Assembly: GCA_003149065.1 (NCBI GenBank)
Contig: QGFZ01000001.1
Coordinates: 992,001-1,056,000 of the forward strand
Direction: 5' to 3'
Length of the DNA: 64,000 nt
From: Ruminococcaceae bacterium R-25
GTDB taxonomy: Bacteria > Bacillota > Clostridia > Saccharofermentanales > Saccharofermentanaceae
Below the pieces are notes generated by a model, which was not told the DNA's origin, made no database searches, and worked only from the letters and a program-made list of their open reading frames with translations. This document shows positions 37,590-43,754 of the stretch, one piece after another. A program made the position numbers and the translations under genes. Numbering within the stretch: position 1 is the first letter of the stretch; each line of letters begins with the position of its first letter.

Positions 37590-37627
37590 ATGTGCGTAAT
37601 TCTGACTGTATCTATTACGGAGTATTT

Positions 37628-38404
37628 ATGTCTGAAGAAAATAATATAAATAAAGATGAGAATATCAAACAGGGCGAAGAGTCCAAGATGTCCCGTTCAG
37701 ACCACCATAAGCACCTGGACGAGAAGTACCCTACCAAAAGAGGCTTCATGGATGTACTGGCCAAGGACGGATTCCTTCTCCTTACCCATATCCTCTGCGA
37801 TATGAAGTGCATCGGACGTGAGAATTTCCCCAAGAACAATCCTTACGTCGTTGCCTCCAACCATCAGAGCTATCCTGACGGCGTTCTCATCATTGACTAT
37901 CTCCCCAAGGGCCACTTCAAGTGGATGTGCTGCCTCGCAGCTTCCGACCTTGAGACCAACCACGGCAAATTAGGCCGCCTCATCATGCGTGTCGGCAGAG
38001 GCATCGCCGTTGACCGTTACGGCAACCCTGTAAGAGGTCTCATCAAGGCCAAGAAGGAAGTCGAAAAAGGAAACATCTGCTTTGTCTTCCCTGAAGGCAC
38101 CAGATCCCACACCGGTAAACTCGCCGAGATGAAAGACGGCGCTGCTTACCTCGCTATCAAGGCCGGCGTTCCCATGGTTCCCGTCTACATCGCAGGCGCA
38201 TACCAGATCTGGCCCAGAACTTCTAAAAAGCCCCATCCGCTTAACGGCTTACACCGCCGTAAGATCAGGATCTACGTAGGCGAACCTCTCCACGGCGAAG
38301 ACTTCGACAACGATGCTCACAAGATGACAGAAGCTTTGTCCGCCTGGATGCACAAACACGAAGACCTCTACTGGGATCCGGAAACAAATTTCGAAGCAAA
38401 GTAA
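37628..38404 (+). CDS. plsC: 1-acyl-glycerol-3-phosphate acyltransferase
   Basis: A 258-aa PlsC-family enzyme that would transfer an acyl chain to lysophosphatidate at the inner membrane. The catalytic NHQSYPDG (HX4D, about residue 82), VDRYGNP and the FPEGTRSHTGKL motif (about 155) are intact. The ATG after ACGGAGTATTT is used instead of one 12 codons upstream. The charged N-terminal 45 residues have no family counterpart that I recognise. It is divergent from the acyl-CoA synthetase and ends in a terminator. Confidence 0.9.
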   Translation: MSEENNINKDENIKQGEESKMSRSDHHKHLDEKYPTKRGFMDVLAKDGFLLLTHILCDMKCIGRENFPKNNPYVVASNHQSYPDGVLIIDYLPKGHFKWMCCLAASDLETNHGKLGRLIMRVGRGIAVDRYGNPVRGLIKAKKEVEKGNICFVFPEGTRSHTGKLAEMKDGAAYLAIKAGVPMVPVYIAGAYQIWPRTSKKPHPLNGLHRRKIRIYVGEPLHGEDFDNDAHKMTEALSAWMHKHEDLYWDPETNFEAK

Positions 38405-38587: not shown

Positions 38588-38929
38588 TTAAGCCCCCACC
38601 CTCTTTACAAATCCGACTTCTTCGAGTTTTTTCATATATACGCTGAGGCGTTCATATAAAGGCTCAGCTTCATCACCGTACTTTTCCTTAACAAGCTGAC
38701 CTATATCGTAGACTGATTTCTTACCGTCTACGCACAGGAAGATAAAGCTGCCCATGCCTTCAAGTTTGATATGCGACACTTCAGGTCTTTTAAAGAACTT
38801 CTGCGCGATCTTATTCGTAAAGCCCTTGTTCTCCATATCAACGGTGACTTCGCCTTCATCTGAACAATTGAAGACAAGGCCTTCCGGGCGCTCGAAAACA
38901 TAATCGAGAAAGTTTTCCTTATTTCGCAT
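38588..38929 (-). CDS. PqqD-like small protein coupled to an OPT transporter
   Basis: A 113-aa protein whose second half fits the PqqD / RiPP-recognition winged-helix fold: HIKLEGMGSFIFLCVDGKKSVYDIGQLVKEKYGDEAEPLYERL. PqqD proteins usually hand a precursor peptide to a radical SAM enzyme. None is encoded next to it; instead it overlaps the end of an oligopeptide-type transporter gene by 11 nt. The role is therefore open: peptide capture for the transporter, or a degenerate domain. Confidence 0.7.
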   Translation of the reverse strand: MRNKENFLDYVFERPEGLVFNCSDEGEVTVDMENKGFTNKIAQKFFKRPEVSHIKLEGMGSFIFLCVDGKKSVYDIGQLVKEKYGDEAEPLYERLSVYMKKLEEVGFVKRVGA

Positions 38930-40826
38930 TCTTCTTTTTCCCGGATATCTTCTTTCCGCCTCCTGCCATAAAGAAGACTACTGCACCGATAGCAATGAGA
39001 ACGATGAGTGAAGTTATGTTTCCTGTAGGAAGATAGGAACTTATATTGATCTTATCCGTAACACCTGCAACCGTAAGGATCGCAAGCACGATGCCAAGGA
39101 TGCCTTCGCCTGCAATAAGACCCGAGCAGAAGAGGATTCCCTTGCCGGATTCATCATTCTGCTTGCCGTAGACCTTCTCAACGATGAACTTGATGAGACC
39201 GCCGAGCATGATCGGAGCAGAAAGCTCGAGAGGAAGATAAAGGCCGATTGCAACAGGAAGAGCAGATATGCCCAGGAGCTCAATTACTATCGCAATGAAT
39301 ACACCGATGAAGATCAATGTCCAGGGAAGGTTGCCGTCCATGACGCCTTCGATGATCATCTTCATCATTGTTGCCTGAGGAGCTGCGAGCTTGTCGGTAC
39401 CGAATCCGAATGCGGAATCGAGGAGCACCATTACGCCGCCTATTGCAAGCGCTGCAGCGATAGTTCCCATGATCTCACCGATCTGCTGCTTCTTAGGTGT
39501 GGCACCGAGGATATAACCGGTCTTTAAGTCCTGTGAAGTATCACCTGCCATGCATGCAGCGATGCAGATGATTGATCCGATAGCGATTGCGCCCTGCATT
39601 CCGTGAACGCCTGTATCGCCTGTGAGCTTAAGGCAGAATGTAGCGATAAGGACCGTTGCTATCGTCATGCCGGATACAGGATTGTTGGAGCTTCCGACAA
39701 GGCCTACCATTCTTGAGCTTACGGCACTGAAGAAGAAGCCGAAGATTACTACAAGGATGGCACCGACTATCGTTACGGGGATCGCCGGGATGATCCAGAT
39801 AAGAAGGATAAGAACAGCAATGGAGATGAGGACAAAGCGCATGTCGATGTCCATGTTGGTACGGTCGTTCTTTGCCTTGCTTCCGTTGCTCTTTGAGATG
39901 CCCTTAACTGAGCCTGTAAAAGCTTTTATGATCGTAGGGAAGGTCTTGATGAGACTTATGATGCCGGCAGCAGCAACAGCGCCCGCACCGATATATTTAA
40001 TGTAGCTTGCCCAGATGGCGGATGCGCCGCCTGTAGCATAGAGTTCAGCAACTGAAACTGTTGCAGGATACATAACTATATCCGTACCGAATGTGACTAT
40101 AGCAGGGATCAGTACGAACCAGCCGAGTATACCACCGGCGAACATATAACCTGAGATCTTGGGACCGCAGATATATCCGACCGAGATAAGCGCAGGATAG
40201 ATCTCTGAAGAGAACTCCGTCTTAAGTGCCGAGAGTCTGAAAGATACTACGGATCTGACAGCACAAAGTCCGTCAGTTACAAACTTGATGACAGCGCCGA
40301 TACCCATTCCGATGAAGACTGATTTTGCAGAAGATCCGCCCTTCTCACCTGCGAGAAGAACTTCGGCACATGCAGTGCCTTCCGGATAAGGGAGCAGGCC
40401 GTGCTCTTTTACGATAAGTGCGCTTCTTAAAGGCACCATGAAGAATACACCGAGAAGACCGCCGACCAGGGCGATGATGGTGATAGTGATAAGCGCGGGC
40501 TTATCCATTACACCTTCTTTTGCCCAGATAAAGAGCGCAGGCATGGTAAAGATAGAACCTGCAGCAAGAGATTCACCGGCGGAGCCTATTGTCTGGACCA
40601 TATTGCTCTCAAGGATCGAATCCTTGCGCATGATGATCCTGATTACCGTCATCGAGATAACGGCAGCAGGAATTGATGCTGATACCGTAAGTCCGACCTT
40701 AAGGCCAAGGTATGCATTTGCAGCACCGAAAACAACGGCAAGGACAATGCCGAGTATGACCGATGCCGGAGTCATTTCTGTTGTTACTTTATCAGCAGGA
40801 ATATACGGTTTGAAATTATTATCCAT
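38919..40826 (-). CDS. OPT-family oligopeptide / metal-chelate transporter
   Basis: A 635-aa membrane protein with about 14-16 hydrophobic segments. The OPT family pattern appears in LGIVLAVVFGAANAYLGLKVG near the start, PYPEGTACAEVLLAGEKGG, GDTSQDLKTGYILGATPKKQQ and FCSGLIAGEGILG. Members carry peptides, siderophores or metal chelates. The ATG at 40826 follows TTGGAGGCAGAC. It is cotranslated with the pqqD-like gene. Confidence 0.9.
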   Translation of the reverse strand: MDNNFKPYIPADKVTTEMTPASVILGIVLAVVFGAANAYLGLKVGLTVSASIPAAVISMTVIRIIMRKDSILESNMVQTIGSAGESLAAGSIFTMPALFIWAKEGVMDKPALITITIIALVGGLLGVFFMVPLRSALIVKEHGLLPYPEGTACAEVLLAGEKGGSSAKSVFIGMGIGAVIKFVTDGLCAVRSVVSFRLSALKTEFSSEIYPALISVGYICGPKISGYMFAGGILGWFVLIPAIVTFGTDIVMYPATVSVAELYATGGASAIWASYIKYIGAGAVAAAGIISLIKTFPTIIKAFTGSVKGISKSNGSKAKNDRTNMDIDMRFVLISIAVLILLIWIIPAIPVTIVGAILVVIFGFFFSAVSSRMVGLVGSSNNPVSGMTIATVLIATFCLKLTGDTGVHGMQGAIAIGSIICIAACMAGDTSQDLKTGYILGATPKKQQIGEIMGTIAAALAIGGVMVLLDSAFGFGTDKLAAPQATMMKMIIEGVMDGNLPWTLIFIGVFIAIVIELLGISALPVAIGLYLPLELSAPIMLGGLIKFIVEKVYGKQNDESGKGILFCSGLIAGEGILGIVLAILTVAGVTDKINISSYLPTGNITSLIVLIAIGAVVFFMAGGGKKISGKKKNAK

Positions 40827-40950
40827 GTCTGCCTCCAATGGTGTAATAGTAATAATCTACCATATGGAGCAGAATATTTCAGATACATATCAGGCCTCAT
40901 GCGTTGATAAATGGCACTTTCCTGCGAAATATATAATAAATTCAATGCTA

Positions 40951-43602
40951 TTACGTATACAGCCCGCCAAGGAACTCCGTTGCAAACTGGATCTTCGTCG
41001 GATTGAAGACATCACGGCTCTCATCAGTCGGATAGATGAAGAACGTGTCATCGTAGGTCGAAAGAGTTACACACGGACCATAGAGTCCCCTGTAATCGTA
41101 TTCGGTGTGGATCGATACCATGGACGATGCAGGGAACTTCAAAGTCTCATGCTTTTCCGTCCTGTAGTTATCGAACTCCAAAGAGAATCCGGAATTATCA
41201 TGAACAAGTCTTCCCTCACCGCAGTCGACAAAGTTTACGGAATTAGGCAATGCCCAGATCTTAACGGGGATATCGAGTTTATACTTTCCTTCCCTGCACT
41301 CTTCATGGACAAATCCTCTCTGCCATTCGTACCAGTCAGGGATGTGGATAGTCTCACCAGACTCAGAGTGAAGCTGGCCGTACTCATCCATCTCATATGA
41401 GTCGCCGCAGTACTTGCATGTGATCTTGCTGCCCTTTGTCGTCATGGCAAAATCCTTACCACACTTTCTGCAGCGGTACAAAGGATAGTGGAGTCCTTCT
41501 GCTCTCCACTCATCGTTGATGACGATCTTGTTTTCGAGCTGGTACTTATATTCGTCGTAAGTAAGTTCTTTTGAAATGCGCGAAAGGATCTCGTCTACAG
41601 AAAGCTTGCCAATCTCATCTTGAGTCACAACACACTTAAGATCAGCGTGGAGCCTTGCGCCTTTTCTCTCCTTCAAATTCCAGATAGGCTGCTGCAGATA
41701 GTTGCCCTGCATGTTGATCGTTACAACAGGAACCTTCAGAAGCTTTGCAAGCTTGGCAATAGAAGGAGTCAGATGAGAATTGGTTCCGACATTGGCATAT
41801 CTTGCCTCAGGATAGATGACCATGACGTCGCCGCGCTTGATGACCTTCATAATGTTCTTGATCAGCATCTGGTCGTTGATGAATTTGCGTGTTCCGAGAC
41901 ATCCTACCTGACGGTAGATCCACTCGCCGAATGCTTCGAATCCTTCGAGCTCGGAAATGTAATTCGCGCGGTAAGGCTTTAAAGCCAGCGGCGTTACATA
42001 GAAGTCCATGAAGGAATTGTGCGAACCGTAAACCAGGAACGGGGGCTTTATACCTTCCATGTTGTGCTTATCGATCTTGAGCTTATAAGGTGCCGTGATG
42101 AACTTACAGATAAGCCAGATAAAAGGCATGAAGAAAAGGTTCTGCCTGGGCGGTGTTTTCGCTCTGTCAAAAGGTCTCTTGTCAGGTCCCTTTCTGATGA
42201 CGTAGTCGCGTATGAAAGGGATCTTGCAGAGCAGATAATAAAGGATTCCAGTGAACAAGAACGACGCAAAAGTCGGTGTCAGCATGAACAGGATCTTATT
42301 ATGGATTATTCCCTTGATAGGATCGTAGATTACGAGCGTGAATCCGAATCCCAATGCAAGGCAGATGATACCTACGATATTAAATCCGCCGGTGTATCTG
42401 TAAGCAGTGTGACCGGGCAGTTCATAGGCACTCTTAAGGTCGATTTTCTGTTTTCTTACGAGGAAGAAGTCAACAAAGAGAAGCGCTGCCAAAGGAGCAT
42501 ATACGCACGCACCGATCGTCAAAAAACTGCCGAAATATTCGGTGATCTTACCCCAGATGCAGAGCAGCGCGACATAAAGTCCGAGTACAAGAACAAGTAC
42601 CTTGTAAGAAGATTTCTTGAACGTCGACTTGAGCATAACGCCATAGATATAAGATCCTACAGCCTGTGTTCCGATGTTCGCGAAAGCAACGAGCAGGAGC
42701 GAAGACAATCCCAGGATAGGCGCAGACAAAGTAGCCATCATGAGCGTCGGGTCATCTACCATCTGGCCAGTTACATACTGCATTGCGATAGCCATGACTG
42801 CGCCGACGACAACGAAGAAAGAGCCTGCCGCGCCCTGTCCCAAGACGCCTGCATAGTAACCGGACTTTTCAGATTTACAAAGACGCGGTACTTCAGCCAT
42901 GCCTCCGACAAGCGTGATAACAAATGCGAAGTTCGCTTCAATACTGAGCACATAATTTACAGTCTTTTCAGCGTCACCTGCAAGCTCCGGCTGATAATTC
43001 CAGATGACATCCATCGGCACAGAAGTAAAGCCTACGATAACGACTGCGACACCGACTAAAAGGAGCAGCGGAACTAAGATCCTCGTAGTCCATGTGATAG
43101 TGCCTACACCGCGCAGTGCAATGATGGTTCCGACGATAACGCAAGAAAGACTTAAGATAAGATGTGCACCGTTGAAGAGCTGTATTCCGAACAGTCCTAG
43201 GAGATTTTCCATCGAGTCTGCGAACAGTTCGCAACACACTGCATACCACGGGAAGTTAACAACGATGATTATTATCGTAACGATCTTATTTCCGGCAGGT
43301 CCGAAAACGCTTCGTAGCCAGATCCAGATATCTATTCCGTATCTTGCCGACATGATTACCGGAAGCTGGTAGATCATGAGCATGAAGATCGCTGCGAGGA
43401 AAGCGCCGATCAAAAGCTGCTTGAATCCTACAAGTGTTGCGAGGTATGAACCCTGCGTATAGCTCCAAGTCGCGATGCAATAGCCTGATAAAACGAGCAG
43501 CGCATCGATAAATCCGTATTTCCGCTCTTTGGGCAGAACAGGAAGTGTTCCGCAATAGACTTCATTCTCGATTTCTTTGTTTACATCATGTTTGCGGCTC
43601 AT
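40951..43602 (-). CDS. NCS1 permease fused to a PlsC-type acyltransferase and zinc ribbon
   Basis: A single 883-aa frame. Residues 1-470 form an NCS1 (cytosine/allantoin-type) permease with about 12 membrane segments (YCGTLPVLPKERKYGFIDALL, GSYLATLVGF, MAEVPRLCKSEKSGYYAG, NIGTQAVGSYIYG). Residues about 485-690 form a lysophospholipid acyltransferase domain: HX4D in YGSHNSFMDFY (about 527) and YPEARYANVGTNS. A rubredoxin-like zinc ribbon follows (CRKCG...CKYCG, about 711-733), then a beta-rich domain. The junction YYLLCKIPFIRDYVI is hydrophobic and continuous, with no frameshift sign. It overlaps a 51-aa membrane peptide gene (ATGA), whose 3' end provides GGAGGA as ribosome site. I know of no such fusion. 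Confidence 0.85.
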   Translation of the reverse strand: MSRKHDVNKEIENEVYCGTLPVLPKERKYGFIDALLVLSGYCIATWSYTQGSYLATLVGFKQLLIGAFLAAIFMLMIYQLPVIMSARYGIDIWIWLRSVFGPAGNKIVTIIIIVVNFPWYAVCCELFADSMENLLGLFGIQLFNGAHLILSLSCVIVGTIIALRGVGTITWTTRILVPLLLLVGVAVVIVGFTSVPMDVIWNYQPELAGDAEKTVNYVLSIEANFAFVITLVGGMAEVPRLCKSEKSGYYAGVLGQGAAGSFFVVVGAVMAIAMQYVTGQMVDDPTLMMATLSAPILGLSSLLLVAFANIGTQAVGSYIYGVMLKSTFKKSSYKVLVLVLGLYVALLCIWGKITEYFGSFLTIGACVYAPLAALLFVDFFLVRKQKIDLKSAYELPGHTAYRYTGGFNIVGIICLALGFGFTLVIYDPIKGIIHNKILFMLTPTFASFLFTGILYYLLCKIPFIRDYVIRKGPDKRPFDRAKTPPRQNLFFMPFIWLICKFITAPYKLKIDKHNMEGIKPPFLVYGSHNSFMDFYVTPLALKPYRANYISELEGFEAFGEWIYRQVGCLGTRKFINDQMLIKNIMKVIKRGDVMVIYPEARYANVGTNSHLTPSIAKLAKLLKVPVVTINMQGNYLQQPIWNLKERKGARLHADLKCVVTQDEIGKLSVDEILSRISKELTYDEYKYQLENKIVINDEWRAEGLHYPLYRCRKCGKDFAMTTKGSKITCKYCGDSYEMDEYGQLHSESGETIHIPDWYEWQRGFVHEECREGKYKLDIPVKIWALPNSVNFVDCGEGRLVHDNSGFSLEFDNYRTEKHETLKFPASSMVSIHTEYDYRGLYGPCVTLSTYDDTFFIYPTDESRDVFNPTKIQFATEFLGGLYT

Positions 43603-43754
43603 AAGAAGAATCCTCCGATTATCCCTATAAGGGCTATTACGGTTATCACCGCAGCGATGATGTAATCCTTTTTGGTCATGCGGGGGATCTTTTTTTCCTT
43701 CTCCGCTTTAAGGACCTCTTCGATCCTCGATTCAATCTCTTTGTTGGGTTCCAT
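43599..43754 (-). CDS. 51-residue single-pass membrane peptide coupled to the NCS1 fusion
   Basis: A small gene of 51 codons, read by hand: MEPNKEIESRIEEVLKAEKE, a basic stretch, then one membrane helix (DYIIAAVITVIALIGIIGG). GGAG lies 5 nt before the ATG. Its TGA overlaps the ATG of the NCS1-acyltransferase gene (ATGA), so the two are translated together. It resembles the small accessory subunits found beside some transporters. Function unknown. Confidence 0.75.
   Translation of the reverse strand: MEPNKEIESRIEEVLKAEKEKKIPRMTKKDYIIAAVITVIALIGIIGGFFL

Follow-up and report, generated by a model that had tools for sequence, protein, structure and literature searches.

Organization of the fused gene

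The window, that is, the whole stretch of 64,000 nucleotides from Ruminococcaceae bacterium R-25 that was analyzed (contig QGFZ01000001.1, positions 992,001 to 1,056,000), contains on its reverse strand an ATG-initiated frame of 883 amino acids with zero internal stops (40951–43602). The frame encodes a permease, an acyltransferase, a zinc-ribbon-like segment, and a C-terminal domain, and the junction between the permease end and the acyltransferase start is without an extra domain (Table 1). A preliminary description had proposed that these parts are joined in one polypeptide, which is borne out by the frame, the Pfam matches, and the recurrence of the fusion. It had also placed a 51-residue one-helix peptide upstream, overlapping the start of the fusion; the coordinates agree with this arrangement, and the peptide and the fusion are translationally coupled.

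Table 1. Features of the fusion cassette (positions in the window)
Feature	Position	Strand	Basis
One-helix membrane peptide, 51 aa	43599..43754	-	Overlaps fusion start by ATGA
NCS1/LeuT-fold permease part, residues 1-470	42193..43602	-	PF02133 above cut-off; CodB and Mhp1 fold match
Junction, about residues 471-476	42175..42192	-	Separate homologues stop or begin near here
PlsC-type acyltransferase domain, about residues 473-689; H528, D533, R572, E599	41536..42186	-	PF01553 above cut-off; conserved residues
Four-Cys zinc-ribbon-like segment, about residues 709-734	41401..41478	-	Invariant Cys; score under the Pfam ribbon threshold
C-terminal PH-like domain, about residues 771-883	40954..41292	-	Predicted structure and structural matches

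Structure and conserved residues of the permease

The permease part matches the Pfam family Transp_cyt_pur (PF02133) over residues 21–424 with 51.6 bits against a cut-off of 23.5, and its model resembles CodB (7qoa, Z 34.6, 399 residues, 3.1 Å) and Mhp1 (4d1a, Z 31.0). The thresholds of the NCS1 nucleobase subfamily TIGR00800 (54.8 against 353.1 bits) and of PRK11017 (35.2 against 326 bits) were missed, and a plasmid search for the permease gave only two distant matches labelled cytosine permease (24%). The tryptophan of TM3 at the NCS1 base-stacking position aligns with W119, which is invariant in 20 of 20 permeases. The position of the stacking aromatic of TM6 in NCS1 nucleobase sites aligns with N224, as judged by eye from one profile alignment. 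In an alignment that leaves out TM1, the Na2 hydroxyl T312 is kept in all 20 permeases and the other hydroxyl position is occupied by G311. In a hand-picked set of 12 permeases, E222 is present in all and W119 in 11.

Acyltransferase, zinc-ribbon-like segment, and C-terminal domain

The acyltransferase part matches Pfam Acyltransferase (PF01553) over residues 510–631 with 29 bits against a cut-off of 23, and a profile search recovered PlsC of T. maritima (5kym, E 0.007). Of 35 acyltransferase rows, at least 34 conserve H528-x4-D533, R572, and YPEAR (597–601), in agreement with the earlier observation that the HX4D and YPEAR motifs are kept. R572 and E599 correspond to the arginine of block II and the glutamate of block III; in PlsC enzymes, this arginine binds phosphate. 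The domain shares HX4D and these two residues with PlsC and other 1-acylglycerol-3-phosphate acyltransferases. It differs from them in having YPEAR instead of PEGTR, the usual PlsC motif, in carrying the extra ribbon and PH-like domains, and in its score against TIGR00530, which is 14.1 bits and below the cut-off of 102.95.

The segment following the acyltransferase had been described as a four-cysteine zinc ribbon. C711, C714, C729, and C732, which form two CxxC pairs, show no variation across the alignment (37 of 37 rows, including two distant paralogues). The score against the Pfam family Zn_ribbon_8 is below the cut-off (14.9 against 34.4), and the segment is called zinc-ribbon-like here. 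The fold search with the whole model was filled by permease matches, and the C-terminus was therefore modelled separately. The presence of a beta domain at this end, as previously noted, holds, and its predicted fold is PH-like: in the model (pLDDT 92.8), a helix at the C-terminus comes after seven strands, and the top structural matches are mostly PH, EVH1, and Ran-binding domains, with a best Z of only 8.3 (103 residues, 3.1 Å) and a best Foldseek E of only 2.4e-3. The ribbon and the C-terminal domain also align in permease-free acyltransferases, including two paralogues in the R-25 genome.

Recurrence and history of the fusion

A search of 85 genomes of the genus identified a single-frame match in 31, with 70–100% identity; one of these (G066) is truncated at the end of its contig. 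The fusion is also present in G012, in two frames, and G050 has a permease fragment at a contig end. Permease and acyltransferase are fused in 36 of 77 named loci and encoded by neighbouring genes in 24; the remaining 17 encode only the acyltransferase. The fused loci comprise 21 with the same DNA as the genus genomes and 15 additional ones from other lineages; among them, L051 is truncated at a contig end, and L068 has a break within the permease part. The fusion is also carried by Lachnospiraceae bacterium NE2001 (L059) and Ruminococcaceae bacterium AB4001 (L044), two rumen isolates whose records are not labelled as metagenome assemblies. The domain combination thus recurs in related genomes, which refutes the proposition that the two parts are separate genes in every relative. 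It is exceedingly improbable that misassembly or a sequencing error fused two genes. The frame is broken at the junction in one genus member (L074/L148), but the recurrence of the same single frame in 31 of the genus genomes and in the 15 further loci led us to reject an artefact.

The acyltransferase accompanies the permease (at least 60% identity) in all 60 permease-bearing named loci, either fused or adjacent, in several families. The genus genomes G015, G017, and G045 keep the acyltransferase at 77–78% and have no permease match. Fused permeases form one clade with SH-aLRT supports of 100 and 99, and the result was the same in a repeated tree, for which the rows were truncated at residue 455 and columns with 85% occupancy were used. 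Of the 24 named loci with adjacent genes, 16 entered the acyltransferase tree, as did L142; row L069_F was left out. L003 and L004 have long branches in this tree, and no branch separates the outgroup from all other rows. Acyltransferase-only copies are nested within permease-linked ones, two of them inside the fused clade. One fusion event suffices for the tree. In the loci seen, the permease depends one-way on the acyltransferase, which has repeatedly lost the permease. The conserved adjacency and a fusion for which one origin is enough back the earlier idea of a functional link between the two proteins.

Association of the one-helix peptide with the permease

A homologue of the peptide is encoded at 58 of the 60 permease-bearing named loci, seven of which supplied the seeds of the peptide HMM; 57 are within 150 bases upstream of the permease and that of L081 is slightly further. 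L053 and L088, the two loci without it, are truncated at contig ends. The homologue was found at none of 19 acyltransferase-only loci. Because the peptide also precedes nine of ten permease relatives that lack the acyltransferase, it is tied to the permease and not to the fusion as such. An HMM built solely from acyltransferase-linked peptides detects those linked to lic genes with E values of 3e-10 to 4e-6, and the next non-peptide match has an E of 0.49. Judged by gene association, the peptide is probably a small subunit of the permease. Such a subunit would resemble MAP17, the small one-helix partner of the LeuT-fold carrier SGLT2, and the structural matches to the permease include 7vsi; here, the association of peptide and permease is a genetic one.

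Gene neighbours of permease relatives

Genes of the LicC/LicA choline-phosphate type adjoin six of the ten permease relatives without the acyltransferase. The one of these six neighbours that was run against the PDB matched 1jyk (E 3e-40) and 4r77 (E 2.4e-26), and LicD (E 4.8e-45) is also encoded at one of the six. A lic-linked sister permease is located, for instance, at G000 C2:582.9 kb. Two other relatives adjoin MttB-type (trimethylamine-methyltransferase-type) genes and one an N-demethylase gene (HODM); near G657, there are only IS elements and uninformative genes. Because nine of the ten adjoin choline- or methylated-amine-type genes, the substrate probably belongs to a class other than the nucleobases. 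Of the earlier label of a nucleobase-type permease, the NCS1 family and fold stand, whereas these neighbours and the alignment, judged by eye, of the TM6 aromatic with asparagine make the nucleobase part doubtful. With only about 44% shared between fusion permeases and those linked to lic genes, their substrates may differ. At the locus of one relative, phosphonate-type genes adjoin the permease and the lic-type gene, and the head group there may be other than choline. Position 123, corresponding to Gln121 of Mhp1, is Cys or Ser in fusion permeases, and lic-linked permeases have Asp or Ala there; Asp123 was dropped as a mark of choline binding because the lic-linked L174 has Ala. A search of the DNA around the ten relatives with the acyltransferase part gave nothing better than E 0.30. 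An ordinary PlsC-like gene was seen by eye at L141:3648-4400, on the opposite strand.

Surroundings of the cassette

Beside the fusion cassette itself, no choline gene is among the matches listed, and the gene clusters shared beyond the cassette are, among the matches listed, genus-bound or broad families. A search with Rfam of the 64-kb window and ten loci identified no riboswitch directly upstream of the cassette. In L059, a TPP riboswitch and thiamine genes are located just downstream of the fused gene; with this element following the gene, the riboswitch was discarded as a substrate clue. In L064, a tRNA is located upstream at a distance of about 4 kb. R-25 probably makes PE, because a PS-decarboxylase gene adjoins a CDP-alcohol transferase gene in its genome. 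There is no clear signal relating the fusion to Psd within the genus: Psd is present in 15 of 33 genomes with the fusion, a set that includes G012, with its two frames, and G050, with its permease fragment, and in 35 of 52 without it (p 0.07); in near-complete genomes, the counts are 10 of 19 and 21 of 27 (p 0.11).

Proposed function of the cassette

Our preferred reading, which is tentative, is that the cassette imports a choline-type lipid precursor and acylates it. The choline-type substrate class is suggested by the gene neighbours of the relatives and the residues of the site. The permease and its one-helix subunit would bring a choline-like or methylated-amine compound, most likely glycerophosphocholine (GPC) or lysophosphatidylcholine (lysoPC), into the cytosol. 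There, the PlsC-type acyltransferase attached to the permease, kept in place by the ribbon and PH-like domains, would esterify the imported compound to a membrane phospholipid. No LeuT-fold carrier of lysolipids is known to us, which speaks against this reading, as do the absence of a choline gene among the listed neighbours of the cassette, the low similarity to the lic-linked permeases, and the unclear signal for Psd. The acyl acceptor, the acyltransferase activity, and these roles of the two small domains are putative, as is a direct hand-over of the cargo. A more specific version is rather unlikely: a GPC or lysoPC importer and acyltransferase in one polypeptide, with a permease from a choline and methylamine branch of NCS1 and an obligatory one-helix subunit, would produce phosphatidylcholine-type lipid by direct hand-over without CDP-choline.

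General recycling of lysophospholipids is an unlikely alternative, in which the permease would flip the cell's own lyso-PE or lyso-PG inward for repair by the acyltransferase, as a LeuT-fold counterpart of LplT–Aas without choline specificity. The pairing and fusion habit shared with LplT–Aas, so far as the available part of PMC11416262 describes it, would fit such recycling, as would the probable synthesis of PE and the persistence of the acyltransferase alone, which is expected if internal substrates are also used. However, the fold of the permease is that of CodB and Mhp1, not MFS, and the neighbours of its relatives indicate small amines. The same small-amine neighbourhoods would suit the direct acylation of an imported amine or amino alcohol to an acyl-choline or N-acyl amine instead of a glycerophospholipid, but this is quite improbable given the conservation of R572 and the persistence of the acyltransferase without the permease.

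A shared substrate does not follow from the fusion alone, and the PH-like and ribbon domains could serve regulatory coupling, in which the acyltransferase and PH-like parts sense the membrane and gate the permease, or the permease senses for the enzyme. The occurrence of both domains in permease-free acyltransferases speaks against such coupling, to which we assign a low probability. It is very improbable that an ordinary permease for nucleobases or vitamin precursors was fused to a neighbouring lipid enzyme without a functional link. The Pfam family name and the thiamine genes with the TPP riboswitch in L059 would agree with this explanation, but the riboswitch is positioned after the fused gene, the scores fall far short of the cut-offs of TIGR00800 and PRK11017, and the linkage to the acyltransferase is complete in the 60 permease-bearing loci of several families.

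Comparison with known systems

The preliminary description knew of no such architecture and suggested a new kind of membrane enzyme; this is not supported, as LplT–Aas is a functional parallel. According to the available part of PMC11416262, the MFS flippase LplT and the PlsC-type acyltransferase Aas are encoded adjacently in many Gram-negative bacteria and as a single fused ORF in some others. Both systems place a transporter adjacent or fused to a PlsC-type acyltransferase. In contrast to LplT, the transporter here has the NCS1/LeuT fold and a one-helix peptide, and whereas Aas carries an acyl-ACP synthetase, the Pfam scan of the fusion is without an AMP-binding family. The permease shares with the NCS1 members CodB, Mhp1, and MetT the fold, PF02133, the TM3 tryptophan, and one Na2 hydroxyl; it differs in the asparagine aligned with the TM6 aromatic, the invariant Glu222, the fused enzyme, the probable small subunit, and the amine-type neighbours of its relatives. 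MetT transports metformin, a cationic non-heterocycle, as stated in the available part of PMC13390362, which favours the reading of a choline-type cargo.

The GPC pathway of phosphatidylcholine synthesis occurs in mitis streptococci, Xanthomonas, and yeast; bacterial salvage of GPC and lysoPC exists, and the 2019 study, on streptococci that produce phosphatidylcholine from scavenged GPC and lysoPC, left the transporters unidentified, with transporters and acyltransferases still needing identification (PMC6805115, available part). The chemistry proposed for the cassette is alike, in that imported GPC or lysoPC would be acylated, but the available part of that paper describes no permease–acyltransferase fusion for the pathway. 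No description of a fusion of this kind is among the matches listed from the open-access literature. If the import-and-acylate reading is true, the cassette is a candidate GPC or lysoPC transporter and acyltransferase in anaerobic Firmicutes, the two steps sought by that study. The results suggest that one branch of a family of nucleobase transporters handles choline and methylated amines, and therefore some cytosine permease labels may be wrong. They also suggest that small peptides, easily overlooked in annotation, form part of these carriers.

Domain organization of the fusion

The permease and the acyltransferase are joined in one uninterrupted frame, and a gene for a single-helix peptide overlaps its start, both as the preliminary description had stated. 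The whole-protein model has a pLDDT of 84 and a pTM of 0.63, so the relative placement of the domains is uncertain. The permease part of this model matches the NCS1-family transporters CodB and Mhp1 with Z-scores of 34.6 and 31.0, respectively, in structure comparison. Residues 690-883, modelled separately, reached a pLDDT of 92.8; their structural matches are mostly PH-superfold domains, the best with a middling Z-score of 8.3.

Features of the fusion, its surroundings and related loci (L numbers, individual loci; G000, genome of the window)
Feature	Position	Strand	Remark
Fusion	window 40951-43602	minus	883 codons
NCS1-type permease	residues 1-470		Pfam match above cut-off
PlsC-type acyltransferase	residues 473-689		Pfam match above cut-off
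Four-Cys ribbon	residues 709-734		
Seven-strand domain and C-terminal helix	residues 771-883		PH-superfold-like in model
One-helix peptide	window 43599-43754	minus	51 aa; last bases are the ATGA that begins the fusion
Second PlsC-like acyltransferase gene	window 37592-38404	opposite to fusion	
PqqD-like protein	window 38588-38929		113 aa
OPT-family transporter	window 38919-40838		adjoins PqqD-like protein
Tandem acyltransferase frame	L153:1225-2619 (G000 C1 ~868.7-869.7 kb)		464 aa
Permease and peptide in methylamine-type clusters	L176:6419-8069; L177:6652-8309		
lic locus	L174:757-8044		
Glycerophosphodiesterase-like gene	L174:12069-12800		by eye; after lic locus
Phosphonate-type and lic-type genes with permease	L144:1-9727		
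TPP riboswitch and thiamine salvage genes	L059:8784-10444		directly downstream of a fused copy

The catalytic HX4D motif is indeed kept: H528 and D533, like R572 and E599, occur in at least 34 of 35 aligned rows. The genome of the window contains seven PF01553 matches in six frames. One of these frames, at 109 bits, is a far better candidate for the housekeeping PlsC, a role that the fusion is therefore unlikely to fill. Two paralogues in the same genome that stand alone can also be aligned over the ribbon and the C-terminal domain, which are thus traits of the acyltransferase family and not of the fusion. Another frame of this genome carries two tandem PlsC-type acyltransferase domains. Homologues of the second PlsC-like gene of the window lie near the cassette of permease, acyltransferase and peptide in 18 of 77 named loci, and the OPT cluster in only four.

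Distribution and origin of the fusion

The domain combination recurs in related genomes. A single-frame match is present in 31 of 85 genus genomes, one of them cut by a contig end; the match is split over two frames in G012, and G050 has a permease fragment at a contig end. Relatives do not all encode two separate genes. Of the 77 named loci, 36 are fused in one frame and 17 carry only the acyltransferase; in the other 24 the two genes adjoin with the same orientation, a few bases being shared in several cases. Of the fused loci, 21 are DNA already counted among the genus genomes, and the other 15 are further copies from other lineages. The fused state is seen in the genus of the window, in records labelled Lachnospiraceae and Eubacterium, in L069 and in genome G296. 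In permease trees, built by a quick method and with L069 as a long branch, all 16 fused rows used form one clade (SH-aLRT 100 and 99), so that a single fusion event suffices. The frame is broken in two MAG copies, L068 and L074 (the same DNA as L148), which may reflect sequencing errors. In L074/L148, from one genus member, the break falls at the permease-acyltransferase junction and yields two overlapping frames, through either a sequencing error or a real split.

Linkage of permease, acyltransferase and peptide

All 60 named-locus permeases (identity at least 60%) have the acyltransferase fused or adjoining. So do the six permeases above 60% identity among 391 genomes sampled evenly from the class: five share a frame with the enzyme, namely G296 and four genus members, and in G362 the two adjoin. 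In the acyltransferase tree, proteins with no permease next to them are interspersed with linked ones; well-supported branches force at least six linked/unlinked changes, and two permease-less proteins sit within the fused clade. Genome searches found no permease match in three genus members with the acyltransferase at 77-78% (G015, G017 and G045); at the other acyltransferase-only loci absence was judged at the locus. Such a pattern, with a carrier apparently of no use on its own and an enzyme that can persist alone, would be expected if what the carrier brings in from outside is an optional substrate.

Judged by gene neighbourhood, the peptide goes with the permease. Of the 60 permease-bearing loci, 58 have a homologue and the remaining two are truncated by contig ends; none of 19 acyltransferase-only loci has one. 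In 57 loci its end is at most 150 bases from the permease start, and in L081 it is slightly further off. The peptide also precedes nine of ten permease relatives without acyltransferase (weakest in G860, E 7e-4). An HMM made solely from acyltransferase-linked peptides recovers those linked to lic (choline-phosphate) genes at E 3e-10 to 4e-6, the next non-peptide scoring 0.49.

Substrate class of the permease

The preliminary description called the permease nucleobase-type. The NCS1 fold stands, but the more plausible substrate is a compound of the choline or methylated-amine type, given the gene neighbours of the relatives, site residues and a precedent within the family. The genome of the window has no CodB above the model cut-off, and its sole other match to this model is a 44% paralogue of the fusion permease. 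The paralogue has its own peptide and adjoins a gene with LicC- and LicA-like halves, matching pneumococcal CTP:phosphocholine cytidylyltransferase (1jyk, E 3e-40) and choline kinase (4r77, E 2.4e-26). Among the ten relatives, gathered from several genome scans, LicC/LicA-type genes adjoin the permease in six (G000, G016, G022, G023, G383 and G890); all six pass the cut-off of the Pfam choline-kinase model, and G890 additionally has LicD (E 4.8e-45). In G825 and G860 the permease lies amid MttB-type methyltransferase and corrinoid genes, with Pfam matches above cut-off and the MttB NCBIfam equivalog model just under it (507.5 and 501.3 versus 525). The G752 permease (28% identity, no peptide) adjoins an N-demethylase and a betaine-aldehyde-dehydrogenase-like gene; the neighbours in G657 include nothing informative. 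Visual inspection of an alignment to Mhp1 shows the Trp of TM3 conserved and Asn at the TM6 aromatic position; 12 of 12 hand-picked permeases have Glu222 and 11 have Trp119. Background on CodB comes from PMC9379551; MetT (PMC13390362) is an NCS1 member that sets a precedent for a cationic, non-heterocyclic substrate. The 44% identity to the lic-linked paralogue does not fix the substrate.

In L176 and L177, an NCS1-like permease and a peptide of the same kind lie within trimethylamine/dimethylamine methyltransferase-type clusters, which makes them candidates for a methylamine permease and its small subunit. A TAG interrupts the MttB-type frame of L176 after 328 codons, beyond which no further stop occurs up to codon 491, the appearance expected of a pyrrolysine codon. 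The L174 locus combines LicD, a LicC/LicA-type gene, the peptide and an NCS1-like permease. Since phosphonate-type genes (PEP mutase by Pfam, phosphonopyruvate decarboxylase by eye) adjoin the lic-type gene and permease at L144, the head group there may be other than choline.

Proposed function and relation to LplT-Aas

The earlier view that no such architecture is known does not hold: LplT-Aas already pairs, and even fuses, a transporter (an MFS flippase) with a PlsC-type acyltransferase (PMC11416262). The cassette is therefore a variant of a known pairing, new in its transporter fold, extra small subunit, accessory domains and bacterial hosts.

The permease would import a choline-type precursor, which would then be acylated at the inner membrane face. 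The best-fitting cargoes are glycerophosphocholine and lysophosphatidylcholine: each contains choline, and each undergoes acylation in a bacterial route already described, for which PMC6805115 calls the transporters unidentified. The main rival to choline-precursor import is a general lysolipid flippase-acyltransferase resembling LplT-Aas (PMC11416262). PE-synthesis genes occur in 15 of 33 fusion-bearing genomes (including the split G012 and fragmentary G050) versus 35 of 52 others, a weak and not significant deficit (p 0.07); the counts are 10 of 19 versus 21 of 27 in near-complete genomes only (p 0.11). The genome of the window itself has a gene for Psd, the PS decarboxylase of PE synthesis.
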